Assembly (NCBI RefSeq): GCF_026013965.1
Contig: NZ_CP110341.1
Location: forward strand, 3,100,001-3,164,000
Length of the DNA: 64,000 nucleotides
Reading direction: 5' to 3'
Source of the DNA: Brevibacterium sp. JSBI002
GTDB lineage: Bacteria > Actinomycetota > Actinomycetes > Actinomycetales > Brevibacteriaceae
The notes below the pieces were generated by a model. That model made no database searches. It was given only the letters and a program-made list of their open reading frames with translations, and was not told the DNA's origin. The position numbers were made by a program, and so were the translations under genes. Shown here one piece after another: positions 1-62,064 of the stretch. Within the stretch, counting starts at the first letter, position 1. Each line of letters opens with the position of its first letter.

Positions 1-389
1 GGTGCTCCGGCAGCAGCCGACAGCGCCTGTTGAGCCTCAGCACGGCGCGCGCCGACCTTCGGTCGATTGCCGATCACCTGAACGGAGATGTTTCCGATCT
101 CGAAGCCTGCCTTGCGGACGATGCGGGCCGCCTCGGCGAGCAGCACCGACCCGGAGGCGCCGGCGAATTCCGGACGGTCGACGCCGAAGTGCTCACCGAG
201 GTCGCCGAGTCCCGCGGCGGAGAACAGGGCGTCGCAGCAGGCGTGGGCGGCCACATCGGAGTCCGAGTGTCCTTCGAGTCCTCGTTCGCCCGGCCACAGC
301 AGTCCCGCAACCCACAGCTCACGTGCGGGATCGGCGGCGAAGGCATGGACATCGACGCCGGTGCCGATGCGGGGAATGACCTGATTCAT
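1..389 (-). CDS. ispF: 2-C-methyl-D-erythritol 2,4-cyclodiphosphate synthase, C-terminus cut by window edge
   Basis: This is the MEP-pathway enzyme that cyclises CDP-ME 2-phosphate to MEcPP in the cytoplasm. The ATG at 389 opens a reading frame with the family N-terminus: a metal-binding DVH at residues 13-15, then [11 protein letters not shown], whose His49 is the third metal ligand, and later [11 protein letters not shown]. Only about 129 of the usual 155-165 residues are inside the window, so the TTDGLG segment is missing. The ATG overlaps the ispD stop as ATGA, so the pair is translationally coupled. Metal-ligand assignments follow the known family; the rest is read directly. Confidence 0.93.
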
Positions 390-1402
390 CGTGGCTCCTT
401 CGCCGAATCCGGCGCACCCGGTCCAGGGGCGACGGCTCCGTCACGCATTCGGGCGAGCTGTTCTGCGAGGACGAGGTCGAGCGGATAGGTGATCTTCAGC
501 GCCTCGTCGTCACCGTCGACGGCGACGACGTCGACGCCGAGGCGCTCGACGAGCCCCGCATCGTCCGTCGGCAGAGCACTGCCCTGCCGGTCGCTCCCAG
601 TCGTCGAGCCCGCACCCTCGATCAGGCCTGCACCATCTGCGGAGCCAGCCCCACCGGTCGGACCAACACCATGAGTAAATATTGGGCCGTCGGCGGCAAA
701 CTCGTCATGGGCCCGCCGGAGCACCTCGGCGCGGAACCCCTGAGGCGTCTGGACCCGTCGCAGCACGGCCCTGTCGAGGTCGCCCCGCACCACTTCACGC
801 GTGCCGGCGCCCACAGCGACGGCAAGATCCGGATTGTTGGGTCGATCCGCGGTGGTTTCAGCGCCAGAATCGCCGTGGATCGACCCAACAATTCCGTGGG
901 AAGCGCCCTCCGCGCCCGTGCCTGCCCCTGCGTTCGGTTCCGCACCGACGGCTGCGTGCGGAACGACCCTCCGCACGGTATCGACCATCGGCAGAACCGG
1001 AACGACCGCCTCGGCGCCGGAATGCAGCGCGGCGACCACTCGAGTGAACACATCGGACGGGGTCAGACACCTCGCCGCATCATGAACGAGAACGTATTCC
1101 GCATCGCGCTTAAGTTTCAAGGCAGTTTGCACCGAGGAATTGCGATCATTGCCACCCGCTACGGCTGTAATTGAAATTTCGCATTTCATCCGCGTAGCTG
1201 CTTCAGCGATTTCTTCTTGCGCCTGCAAAAGAAAATCCTCGGGAGCGGCCACCACGATTGCGGAGGCGACTCCCGAGGAGATGATCGTCTCGAGGCTGCG
1301 GGCCAGAAGGGTCCGTCCGTTCACACGGACGAAAGCCTTCGGCTCATTGCAACCCAGACGGGATCCCGACCCTGCAGCCGGGATGATGACACAGGTGCTC
1401 AG
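386..1402 (-). CDS. ispD: 2-C-methyl-D-erythritol 4-phosphate cytidylyltransferase with two large insertions
   Basis: This MEP-pathway enzyme transfers CMP from CTP to MEP. The nucleotide-binding motif [12 protein letters not shown] lies upstream of the first GTG (1324), so the real start must be earlier. The best candidate is CTG at 1402, overlapping the carD stop as CTGA; no ATG, GTG or TTG is available in frame. HDAAR (about 107-111), RVQTPQGF and TDDA are intact. The protein would be about 338 aa against 220-240 for the family. The excess lies in two Gly/Ala-rich inserts, about residues 147-204 and 240-278. The first contains the in-frame palindrome at 833-892. Function is secure; the start codon is not. 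Confidence 0.88.
833..892. repeat. Palindromic element, copy 1, inside ispD
   Basis: Two perfect 16-bp inverted arms (833-848 ATTGTTGGGTCGATCC, and 877-892) flank a 28-nt spacer. The element is read in frame through ispD as about 20 residues ([10 protein letters not shown] followed by [10 protein letters not shown]). A close relative lies at 62180-62239, with matching arms and about 20 of 28 spacer bases identical. A third element at 63676-63733 keeps the geometry. Confidence 0.8.
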
Positions 1403-1881
1403 GATGCGAGCACTTCGTCCAGCAGAGCTTCTGCTTCGGACTCTTCCTTCTTCTCGGCCAGTGCGAGTTCGGAGACGAGGATCTGGCGAGCCTTCGAGAG
1501 CATGCGCTTCTCACCGGTCGACAGGCCACGGTCCTGCTCTCGGCGCCAGAGGTCACGGACGACCTCTGCTACCTTGATGACGTCACCGGACTGGAGCTTC
1601 TCGACATTGGCCTTGTACCGACGGGACCAGTTCGCGGGCTCTTCGACGAATTCGGCACGCAGGACGTTGAAGACCTTCTCGACGCCTTCTTCACCGACGA
1701 CATCTCGCACACCGACCAGATCGCAGTTATCTGCCGGAACTTCGATCACGAGATCGCCATGGGCGACCTGGAGCTTGAGATACAGCTTCTCCTCACCTTT
1801 GATGGCACGTTTCTTGATTTCTTGGATTGTCGCTGCACCGTGATGTGGATAGACAACAGTGTCGCCGACCTGGAAACTCAT
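1399..1881 (-). CDS. carD: CarD family RNA polymerase-binding transcription regulator
   Basis: CarD binds the RNA polymerase beta subunit and stabilises open promoter complexes, especially at rRNA promoters. The 160-aa protein has the usual length. It begins with the Tudor-like RNAP-interaction domain ([17 protein letters not shown], then IEVPADN at 47-53). A helical DNA-binding domain follows, with the conserved Trp region [12 protein letters not shown] and the stretch [19 protein letters not shown] purine-rich GAAGAGAATATG precedes the ATG. It is the first gene of a carD-ispD-ispF operon, the same order as in mycobacteria. A possible -10, TAAACT, lies at 1917-1912 on the minus strand but has no convincing -35. 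Confidence 0.96.
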
Positions 1882-2232
1882 ATTCTCTTCAAACCCCTTT
1901 CGCGGAATACCAGTTTACCATGAGGCTCGCCACAGAAATCGTTCAGGGTAGCGAATCTTCATGCTAGGCTCCGCCTCTGCCGCACGCCGTGATGACCCCG
2001 GCTGACGCCTCTGCCAGCGAGAACATCGGAGAGGGCGCATTGCCACGAGGCTCGGCATTCAACCTCGACCGAACGCGATGCGGGCCGATCTTCGCCGCCT
2101 CTTCACCGAAACTTCAACCGCGACGCGCCCGAGCGTCGCGGAACCTCGTCCACTCCGACCACCCGGTTCTACAGCGGGTCAAAAACCGGGTAGTATACAG
2201 ACTGATCTTGTATTGCCACTTCAAGGAGCATA
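1882..2232. promoter_or_regulatory. Divergent promoter region between carD and lpqE with two inverted repeats
   Basis: I see no gene in this 351-bp gap. It holds a perfect 9-bp stem with a 6-nt loop (CCGCGACGC at 2118-2126, GCGTCGCGG at 2133-2141). A second inverted repeat is ACCCGGTT at 2161-2168 with AACCGGGT at 2184-2191. The second repeat abuts a likely lpqE -10, TAGTAT (2191-2196), so it could be an operator. AAGGAG at 2223-2228 is the lpqE ribosome-binding site. These are sequence observations only; the regulator is unknown. Confidence 0.45.
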
Positions 2233-59963: not shown

Positions 59964-61112
59964 ATGCCCACCACGAACACCACCACCGAGGCGGCCGTGT
60001 CGAAACCGGCGAAGCTCACCTCCAAACAGCTCCCGAAGGCCACCCCGTGGATCGTCGCCGTCGCCTCGATCATCGTGGCGATCGTCATCAGCTTCATCGC
60101 CTTCGGCGGCTTCAACATCCCCGTCGTCGCCGTCCTCGCCGGCCTCATCAACGCGATCGCCGTCTTCGCGGTCTCCGCGTCCTACGAAGGCCGCCGCAAG
60201 GCCGTCGACCGGATCGCGACCACCATCGTCACCTCGACGTTCGTCCTCGCATGCGTTCCCCTCATCTCGCTGCTGTGGCTGACCGTGTCCAAGGGAGGGG
60301 CCGCCATCAGCGGCGACCTGCTCACCCGCACCATGCTCGGCATGAAGGGCGTCCTCGATCAGCAGTACGTCGCCGGTGAGGCCACTCTGGCCGGCGGCTT
60401 CTACCACGCCATCGTCGGCACCGTGCTCATCACGCTCGCCGCCTGCGTGATCTCGATTCCGATCGGCGTCCTCACCGCCATCTACCTCGTCGAGTACTCG
60501 AACAAGAACCGCCTGGGCAAGGCGATCACCTTCCTCGTCGACGTGATGACCGGTATCCCCTCGATCGTCGCCGGTCTCTTCGCCTTCGCTCTGTTCTCCA
60601 CGATCGCGAATGTGCTCATGCCCGGTTCTGCGGGAATCGCCAAAACCGGTTTCACCGCCGCCGTGGCACTGTCGGTGCTGATGATTCCGATCGTCGTGCG
60701 CAACACGGAGGAGATCCTCCGCCTGGTGCCGATGGACCTGCGCGAGGCCTCCTACGCACTCGGCGTGCCGAAGTGGAAGACGATCGTGAAGATCGTTCTG
60801 CCCACCTCGGTGTCGGGAATCCTCTCCGGTGTCACCATCGCCATCGCCCGCGTCATCGGTGAGACGGCACCCATCATGGTCACCGCCGGGTTCGCCAAGA
60901 CGCTCAACTGGAACCTCTTCTCCGGTTGGATGTCGACGCTGCCGACGTTCATCTACGACTCGCAGCTGCGCCCGGTCTCGCCGGGAGCCGCCGCCCTGGC
61001 CAGCTCGGAACGCGCCTGGGCCGCAGCCCTTGTGCTCGTCGCCCTCGTCATGGTGCTCAACCTGCTCGCCCGCATCATCGCGAAGGTGCTCGCACCGAAG
61101 GCCGGACGCTGA
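59964..61112 (+). CDS. pstA: Phosphate ABC transporter permease PstA
   Basis: This 382-aa partner permease of PstC has the extra N-terminal helices seen in actinobacterial PstA ([33 protein letters not shown]). [13 protein letters not shown] and the EAA-type loop [22 protein letters not shown] (in pieces) follow, with [14 protein letters not shown]. The ATG at 59964 is eight bases from the pstC stop. An earlier TTG at 59955 lacks spacing. Confidence 0.94.
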
Positions 61113-61167
61113 CCGGCGACTGCCCACAGACCTCCAGACTCACCCATTTCCACGGATAGGAAACACA

Positions 61168-61947
61168 ATGTCCAAGCAGATCGACATCAAGGATCTCGAC
61201 ATCTTCTACGGCGACTTCCGCGCCGTCGACGGAGTGCAGATGCAGATCAAGCCGCGCTCCGTCACCGCCTTCATCGGCCCCTCGGGCTGCGGCAAGTCCA
61301 CGGTGCTGCGCACGCTGAACCGCATGCACGAAGTCATCCCCGGCGCAAGCGTCTCCGGTGAGGTCCTCATGGACGGCAATGACATCTACGGTGCCGGCGT
61401 CGACCCAGTCAACGTCCGCCGCGAGGTGGGCATGGTCTTCCAGCGGGCGAACCCGTTCCCGACGATGAGCATCAAGGAGAACGTGCTCGCCGGTGTGCGC
61501 CTGAACAACAAGCGCATGTCGAAGACCGAAGCCGACGATCTCACCGAACGTGCCCTGCGCGGCGCGAACCTCTGGAACGAGGTCAAGGATCGCCTCAACC
61601 TGCCCGGCTCGGGTCTCTCCGGCGGTCAGCAGCAGCGTCTGTGCATCGCCCGCGCGATCGCCGTCGAACCCGAGGTCCTGCTCATGGACGAACCGTGCTC
61701 GGCTCTCGACCCGATCTCGACCCTGGCGATCGAGGACCTGATCAACGACCTCAAGGACAAGTACACGGTCGTCATCGTCACTCACAACATGCAACAGGCG
61801 GCTCGTGTGTCCGACAAGACTGCGTTCTTCAACATCGCCGGCACCGGCAAGCCCGGAAAGCTCATCGAGTTCAACGAGACCTCGACGATCTTCTCGAACC
61901 CGGACAAGGAAGAGACCGAGAACTACATCTCCGGTCGCTTCGGATGA
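61168..61947 (+). CDS. pstB: Phosphate ABC transporter ATPase PstB
   Basis: This 259-aa ATPase drives phosphate import and talks to PhoU. Walker A is GPSGCGKST (37-45), the Q-loop is in VFQRANPFP, the signature is [14 protein letters not shown], Walker B is [13 protein letters not shown] and the switch His is in [13 protein letters not shown]. The ATG at 61168 has AGGAA six bases upstream; the longer open frame is not translated. It is the last gene of pstSCAB. Confidence 0.96.
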
Positions 61948-62064
61948 TCTGAAGGCGCGCCCACCCGGCGGGTTCTGTCTCCGCCTTGACGTGAAGGTGC
62001 GGGTTGCCGCCGCCTCGGCGCAAGGAGAGCCGAAGCGCCTCGCCGAAATAATGCGCGTCACTCG

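Follow-up and report, generated by a model that had tools for sequence, protein, structure and literature searches.

Why should one short word recur so often in a single stretch of an actinobacterial chromosome? The window, by which we mean the whole 64-kb stretch analysed (positions 3100001-3164000 of the single 3,741,678-bp contig NZ_CP110341.1, GCF_026013965.1, from Brevibacterium sp. JSBI002), contains 32 exact copies of the 11-mer CCGCCTCGGCG, 21 on the plus strand and 11 on the minus strand. Dinucleotide-preserving shuffles of the window gave a mean of 0.44 copies and a maximum of 3 (100 shuffles), while the degenerate form CCRCCTCGGYG occupies 49 sites. An initial annotation, made from the letters alone, had counted at least 31 exact copies, judged the word heavily over-represented and put its base-composition estimate below one for 64 kb, all of which was borne out. 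It had also proposed a count against a Markov background, a test of orientation relative to the origin and a comparison of sites between related strains. With these analyses in hand, we find the word to be genuine, present throughout the genome, maintained and split into dialects.

Over a thousand copies of one word on a Brevibacterium chromosome

Across the whole genome (3.74 Mb) CCGCCTCGGCG occurs 660 times in forward and 661 times in reverse orientation, so that more than 1000 copies of one short word, 1321 in all, lie on a Brevibacterium chromosome; the reversed word, used as a control, occurs 17 times (11 + 6). Statistics were computed on a sample comprising the window and 40 evenly spaced 20-kb stretches of the same genome (864 kb, 23%). 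In this sample CCGCCTCGGCG was the top-scoring of all 11-mers, with 310 copies observed against 8.9 expected under an order-3 and 30.6 under an order-5 Markov model. Among the matches listed in open-licence PubMed Central, we found no print record of such a word for Brevibacterium or Actinobacteria, and the 30 listed of 249 papers that contain any of four 10-mers with the word's exact letters deal with unrelated subjects.

The word could in principle be made by codon or dipeptide usage, such as runs of Ala-Glu-Ala (AEA). Genes were called with a simple finder based on a codon model (758 genes, 86% coding; gene starts approximate), and 137 of the 261 genic exact copies do read AEA; moreover, GCCGAGGCG encodes 214 of 416 Ala-Glu-Ala tripeptides, against 39.6 expected from codon usage. 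The whole-gene nulls nevertheless fall far short of the genic total, with 18.3 copies (standard deviation 3.2) under a synonymous codon shuffle and 23.6 (standard deviation 4.4) when the shuffle also keeps neighbouring bases, whereas the reversed word in genes, with 3 copies, sits at its two nulls of 3.2 and 3.9. Spacers (119 kb) hold 49 exact copies against 0.57 under an order-3 Markov model. Codon or protein usage as the full cause is refuted by the whole-gene nulls and the spacer copies, and we regard this explanation as scarcely credible. The annotation's statement that the word appears in three frames and in spacers is true, although the distribution is uneven: along with the 137 AEA copies there are 68 Ala-Ser-Ala (ASA), 44 Arg-Leu-Gly (RLG), 12 other and 49 spacer copies, and the 32 window copies divide into 14 AEA, 6 ASA, 6 RLG, 1 other and 5 in spacers. 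Its claim that protein sequence fails to explain the word likewise stands, as the codon-aware nulls in genes and the Markov expectation in spacers are far exceeded; it had named a count near the codon-aware expectation, or a restriction of the copies to one frame of Ala-rich stretches, as findings that would speak against it, and we observed neither.

Flanks and single substitutions together give the consensus GRCCRCCTCGGYGANG, to which the annotation's GGCCGCCTCGGCGRGG came close. The six CCTCGG positions, the asymmetric central TC among them, admit few substitutions, with the exception of G9 to T (27 copies against 7.7), and since the single-substitution table shows the central TC to be strictly required the word is non-palindromic. 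G3 to A and C10 to T, the most frequent inner changes, are both CpG transitions. Flanking preferences much like these are also seen around the 71 copies of CCRCCTCGGYG that lie in spacers, and so are not derived from codons. The core CCTCGG alone is 1.6-fold enriched in this genome, and the excess sits in the long word. An RNA hairpin at each single site was considered and is unsupported, because the flanks do not extend the word symmetrically and changes at the two variable inner positions are largely independent of each other (19 double variants, where the single variants would predict about 10).

Distribution, conservation and inverted pairs of the sites

Sites of CCRCCTCGGYG occur about once per 1.6 kb and are evenly placed along genes, and the gaps between neighbouring sites are near-exponential (509 gaps, coefficient of variation 1.07). 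The genome begins with dnaA; taking this as the origin (position 1) and assuming the terminus to lie mid-genome, we found no orientation bias, with 278 leading against 270 lagging sites for the degenerate word (p 0.76) and 166 against 144 for the exact word (p 0.23). The former result rules out a strand-polar signal of the Chi or FtsK-orienting polar sequence (KOPS) type. Site counts in the 20-kb stretches are over-dispersed (mean 12.5 with a variance of 36.9), and two of the 40 stretches have no site at all. One of these, L024 (G000:C1:2110001-2130000), is a transport region of metal or arsenic type, with genes for P-type ATPases, an ArsR-phosphatase fusion, an SBF-family transporter and an Abi_2 protein; in the other, L037, LuxR regulators are encoded together with polysaccharide genes. 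Only 4 sites lie in another 38 kb (452-490 kb), which has glycosyltransferase, UDP-sugar dehydrogenase, LuxR and DUF5979-repeat genes. These site-free and site-poor stretches look accessory and may have been acquired recently.

Five congeners were aligned to the window at 84-90% identity. The exact words were kept exactly in 17/31, 15/29, 25/29, 14/24 and 14/28 of the aligned cases, against 16-34% for GC-matched control 11-mers. We then considered codons lying wholly within sites whose amino acid is conserved, taking the expectation from the same codons outside sites: 500 of 525 were identical against 412 expected (z 3.6 to 5.0 per relative), so the sites are conserved in related strains beyond what the protein requires. 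The five relatives are mutually related and therefore do not amount to five independent tests.

Within 974 kb of this genome's sequence, 23 pairs of neighbouring sites lie 11-59 bp apart, of which 11 have hairpin order, 2 are inverted the opposite way and 10 are direct, an excess of hairpin order (p 0.015 against 1/4). By the gene calls, 6 of the 11 hairpin-order pairs are in spacers, and in 5 of the 6 a called gene end lies no more than 75 bp away. Folding of five pairs gave stems of about 20 bp or more for four (z -7.1 to -8.8) and a z of -2.7 for the fifth. When degenerate partners are allowed, a hairpin-order partner within 60 bp is found for 15 of 72 spacer sites against 46 of 476 genic sites (p 0.008); an opposite-order partner is found for 7 of 72 and 44 of 476, respectively. 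A separate, long palindromic intergenic element, ACTACCTGACGG...CCGTCAGGTAG, was also observed in this genome at L005:12133-12187, L008:15900-15954, L010:9256-9310 and other places; its 11-mer half-site has 32 copies in the 864 kb, all 32 of them in called spacers.

In the window, plus-strand exact copies lie within called genes at 128..138, 1006..1016, 4523..4533, 6662..6672, 7361..7371, 12056..12066, 13009..13019, 16267..16277, 17833..17843, 30756..30766, 38633..38643, 42073..42083, 46998..47008, 52688..52698, 52944..52954 and 54023..54033, and in spacers at 28866..28876, 32414..32424, 45549..45559, 45586..45596 and 62010..62020, with 45549..45559 and 45586..45596 forming a direct pair. Those on the minus strand are at 3844..3854, 14221..14231, 15362..15372, 18671..18681, 27367..27377, 28607..28617, 31140..31150, 32903..32913, 35420..35430, 39716..39726 and 48320..48330. 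Twenty-nine of the 31 starts given in the initial annotation are exact, whereas its 1016 and 28617 are really 1006 and 28607, each off by 10, and the minus-strand copy at 32903 had been overlooked. The remaining CCRCCTCGGYG sites are at 4358..4368, 6393..6403, 12904..12914, 27402..27412, 36840..36850, 44120..44130, 44492..44502, 45311..45321, 50633..50643 and 60802..60812 on the plus strand, and at 13145..13155, 14323..14333, 22918..22928, 27718..27728, 45170..45180, 52740..52750 and 59984..59994 on the minus strand. The exact copy at 27367..27377 and the degenerate site at 27402..27412 are the two arms of an inverted pair within a called gene. A gene for a DUF222-HNH protein (23454-24977, minus) lies in the site-poorest part of the window, where there is one degenerate site between 18671 and 27367; nucleases of the DUF222-HNH type are a conceivable origin of the word.

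Dialects within the genus and a second word family elsewhere

The polyphosphate kinase (PPK) encoded in the window is 91% identical to that of B. oceani, 85% to that of a Brevibacterium metagenome-assembled genome (MAG), 84% to that of Brevibacterium sp. W7.2 and at most 67% to those of other genera, which places the host in Brevibacterium. Across 37 genomes of the genus, this one included, the word CCGCCTCGGCG ranges from 13 to 1500 copies. In all 23 genomes with at least 522 copies the PPK shares 84% identity or more with that of the window, and the 14 genomes with at most 331 copies have a PPK of 66-73% identity or no PPK match. Other words around the same CCTCGG core are found in congeners: CGGCCTCGGCG in G016, G032, G030, G017 and G015 (815, 622, 618, 561 and 559 copies, against 120 in the window's own genome), CGACCTCGGCG with ACCACCTCGG in G026 and G004, and ACCGCCTCGGG in G018. 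The dialects sharing CCTCGG follow PPK relatedness. A 13-mer, GCCGCCTCGGCGA, has 394 copies in the window's own genome against 0-45 in 229 genomes from other families of the order.

Motif discovery by expectation maximisation (EM) drifted to codon periodicity in the GC-rich genomes G030, G016, G003, G031 and G063 and was not used there; codon-aware counts stand in for it in G030, G016, G003 and G063. The dialect words exceeded these expectations in G030 (genes 31 against 7.8, spacers 3 against 0.10), G016 (52 against 16.2, 3 against 0.20), G026 (25 against 1.0, 2 against 0.02), G004 (9 against 0.7, 1 against 0.00) and G018 (10 against 2.0, 5 against 0.03). Raw genus-wide counts of CGACCTCGGCG do not set G026 and G004 apart, at 230 and 206 against up to 371 elsewhere. 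When four words were tested in each of three further cases, none was above the codon-aware null in G003 (7 against 5.9, 12 against 15.4, 15 against 13.9 and 16 against 13.8, with none in spacers), G063 showed a weak excess at most, and none was enriched in the 60 kb examined from G009 and G069 together.

Beyond the genus we examined named 22-kb ppk loci of other actinobacteria, one per genome, under a null that keeps the preceding base only; pooled k-mer tables from other families were dominated by shared orthologous genes, and per-locus counts were used instead. GGCATAC occurs 25 times in the Knoellia koreensis locus (genes 12 against 0.6, spacers 12), 19 times in that of Janibacter HTCC2649 (16 against 2.3, spacers 3), and 15 and 17 times in two Terrabacter loci (12 against 3.0 and 11 against 1.9, spacers 3 and 5). 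A Phycicoccus MAG locus has 26 copies of GGCATTC (17 against 2.0, spacers 9) and a Flexivirga locus 15 of GTCATAC (9 against 1.9, spacers 5), while GGCATCC in the Phycicoccus jejuensis locus is weak (9 against 5.0, spacers 1). These words are the extremes of a scan across the named loci, and in 29 pooled Streptomyces loci GGCATAC was at its null (14 against 15.2 in genes, 5 in spacers). In L080, L104, L067, L072, L073 and L076 the three words GGCATAC, GGCATTC and GTCATAC reach 0.7-1.2 per kb, on both strands and in genes and spacers. An inverted pair makes a long perfect hairpin in the Knoellia locus, and across the six loci there was no excess of hairpin order (4 of 7 inverted close pairs). 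Knoellia belongs to the Intrasporangiaceae, in which we take Janibacter, Terrabacter and Phycicoccus to be placed as well, and Flexivirga to the Dermacoccaceae. As judged from these counts, the second family, though unrelated in sequence, appears to reproduce what is seen in Brevibacterium. In 17 Arthrobacter-type loci (L043-L052, L054, L056, L057, L060, L062, L063 and L068; 370-kb pool) we also observed ACGACGGCG, with 113 genic copies against 37.5 and 5 in spacers; at three-fold above the codon-aware null, it is possibly another such word.

Uptake, methylation and other readings of the word

The genome carries a comEA-like gene (HHH_3 and SLBB domains) and comEC with a holA-like gene adjacent. 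ComEC and ATPases of the T2SSE family, of which TadA is a member, each occur in all 57 genomes of the genus, and the window's own genome has two such ATPases. We consider it about an even call that the word serves as a tag for self-recognition, specific to its lineage and of the DNA-uptake-sequence (DUS) type, a reading that accounts for most of its features. Under it, a surface or membrane DNA receptor of a ComEA/ComEC and Flp/Tad-type pilus competence machinery, as in Micrococcus luteus, would bind GRCCRCCTCGGYGANG and thereby favour DNA from close relatives; repeated uptake and recombination would seed and preserve the word across the core chromosome, and shifts in receptor preference around the fixed CCTCGG core would yield the dialects. 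Competence, the pilus, the receptor and any effect of the word on uptake are what we infer here from the sites and genes described above. According to a published study (PMC4322843), transformation of M. luteus requires tad genes, and tad together with comEA/comEC is described as frequent in Actinobacteria. The annotation had likened the pattern to highly iterated palindrome 1 (HIP1) of cyanobacteria or to uptake sequences. A genome-wide iterated word is indeed present, and the uptake model fits more features than HIP1 because the word is non-palindromic with a strict core, its dialects are phylogenetic, some of its inverted pairs form hairpins that may be terminator-like and comEA/comEC are present; HIP1 proper is a palindrome, which this word is not, and the genome has no C5 methylase.

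Several observations weigh against uptake as the explanation. ComEC matches 10 of 14 and T2SSE 14 of 14 control genomes, E. coli included, so these genes permit the uptake reading and do not discriminate, and both are also found in congeners without a tested word (G003, G009 and G069). In the literature covered, no report of competence or DNA uptake in Brevibacterium was found, and the uptake words described there are from Gram-negative families. The excess of hairpin order is based on just 23 pairs. Spacer site density is 0.33 per kb in convergent, 0.43 in divergent and 0.81 in tandem spacers, and a terminator role would not predict such sparse convergent spacers. The zero-site stretches were chosen after their counts were known. 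In the window no trend links the density of sites to conservation: segments to which 0-2, 3-4 and all 5 of the five relatives align have 0.52, 1.22 and 0.70 sites per kb, respectively.

A methylase offers a different starting point. The C5-methylase family PF00145 is missing from 31 of the 57 genomes, this one among them, and from 15 of the 23 with at least 522 word copies, which disfavours a HIP model based on a C5 methylase. Family PF01555 is found in 56 of 57. The member in this genome is a 498-residue open reading frame (G000:C1:346109-347602; L259:2106-3602, minus) with DPPY and FAGSGTT motifs, flanked by a TrkA gene and an FAD-dependent oxidoreductase gene; no gene for a Res partner is among these neighbours (6 kb around the methylase), and no wider search was made. 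Its closest solved relatives are Type III Mod subunits (6k0w, E 1e-42; EcoP15I 4zcf, E 2.5e-35), although it is shorter than the matched Mod chains and falls far short of the cut-off of the NCBIfam models that it hits. Orthologue-like matches are present in 55 of 57 genomes, this one included, the other 54 at 57-95% identity over about 310 residues or more; there is none in G009, and G069 has a 39% partial match only. In 229 genomes from other families the best match was partial, 44% over 132 aa, with at most six first-look candidates scored per genome. Between the motifs, the sequence is well conserved in three aligned methylases, from G000, G030 and G026 (dialects A, B and C). Type III Mods recognise short asymmetric sites and methylate one strand, and CCGAGG would suit such an enzyme because it is asymmetric and has a single adenine.

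The word may therefore be coupled to methylation in the manner of HIP1: an orphan EcoP15I-Mod-like methylase would act on the adenine of CCGAGG, and linked repair, segregation or regulation would make or keep the longer word. This accounts for the association with the gene, and the conservation of the inter-motif region across dialects, like that of the core, and the lack of both methylase and enrichment in G009 and G069 speak for it, as does the co-occurrence of HIP words and specific methylases in cyanobacteria described in PMC4390886. It is weakened by wordless carriers and a published methylome: G003 has a methylase match yet no word above its null, G063 is weak at most, and the PacBio methylome of B. 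linens SMQ-1335 names only CGGANNNNNNTTC and DTGAAT, although its authors add that further systems may exist (PMC5105094), and that strain's word and methylase status are not covered here. The absence in G009 and G069 may moreover be a single event, and 60 kb is little; the 1.6-fold enrichment of the core alone, with the excess in the long word, tells in the same direction. On balance we judge a methylation-coupled word unlikely. It does not exclude uptake, because Campylobacter jejuni uptake depends on a short methylated motif (PMC8468864), and by analogy there may be a hybrid in which the uptake machinery recognises the word in its methylated form.

A binding site for an abundant chromosome-organising or replication and repair protein, such as a nucleoid protein or a Chi- or KOPS-like signal, would sit well with the dense, even spread of sites across most of the chromosome. 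Chi- and KOPS-like signals are, however, polar relative to replication, and replichore polarity is absent; spacing is random, and neither hairpin pairs nor dialects would be expected, so that we hold such a site to be quite improbable. A by-product of mutational or gene-conversion drive with no present function could be read from the two CpG transitions among the inner changes, but the synonymous over-conservation, the hairpin pairs and a core unchanged over large divergence make this very improbable. Returning to uptake, we advance tentatively, with rather less than even confidence, the broader proposal that Actinobacteria have uptake-sequence systems: family-specific self-words with dialects, CCTCGG-cored in Brevibacterium and of GGCATAC type in Knoellia, Janibacter, Terrabacter, Phycicoccus and Flexivirga, would be read by Flp/Tad-ComEA-ComEC, and the Brevibacterium word may also be methylated at CCGAGG by the orphan Type-III-Mod-like adenine methylase. 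If the word is an uptake tag, high-GC Gram-positive bacteria too would discriminate self DNA by sequence, and natural competence would be indicated in an industrially used genus, giving a handle for transforming Brevibacterium. If it is coupled to methylation instead, it would provide a second independent lineage for testing the origin of highly iterated words, still open for HIP1. The question is directly testable because the predicted dialect words can be swapped between species.

Set beside known systems, the Brevibacterium word differs from HIP1 in that HIP1 is palindromic, in that its own genome has no C5 methylase and in that its candidate methylase occurs also in a wordless congener; it resembles HIP1 in being genome-wide, iterated and GC-rich, with a conserved methylase lacking an evident partner in the lineage. 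The mark in C. jejuni CtsM-dependent uptake is a short methylated motif (PMC8468864), whereas the Brevibacterium word is known from sequence alone. The two are alike in having a methylase and competence genes in one genome. The uptake signal sequences (USS) of Pasteurellaceae have a core with weaker flanking positions, subtypes and hairpin pairs. All of these are seen in the Brevibacterium word, which differs in sequence and phylum and whose role in uptake is putative. From the DUS of Neisseriaceae it differs in belonging to an actinobacterium, in its unrelated sequence and in having fewer exact copies per Mb, and no ComP-like receptor is known for it, no pilin or receptor search having been made; a role in uptake would here be a prediction. 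Inverted pairs at gene ends are a feature of DUS, and pairing of this kind is well known in the uptake sequences of both Neisseriaceae and Pasteurellaceae. The DUS dialects of Neisseriaceae have CTG in common (PMC3630211). As with the Brevibacterium word, there are hundreds to thousands of copies, each of about 10-16 bp; they lie on either strand, both within genes and in spacers, and their dialects are built around a core that does not vary (PMC3630211).

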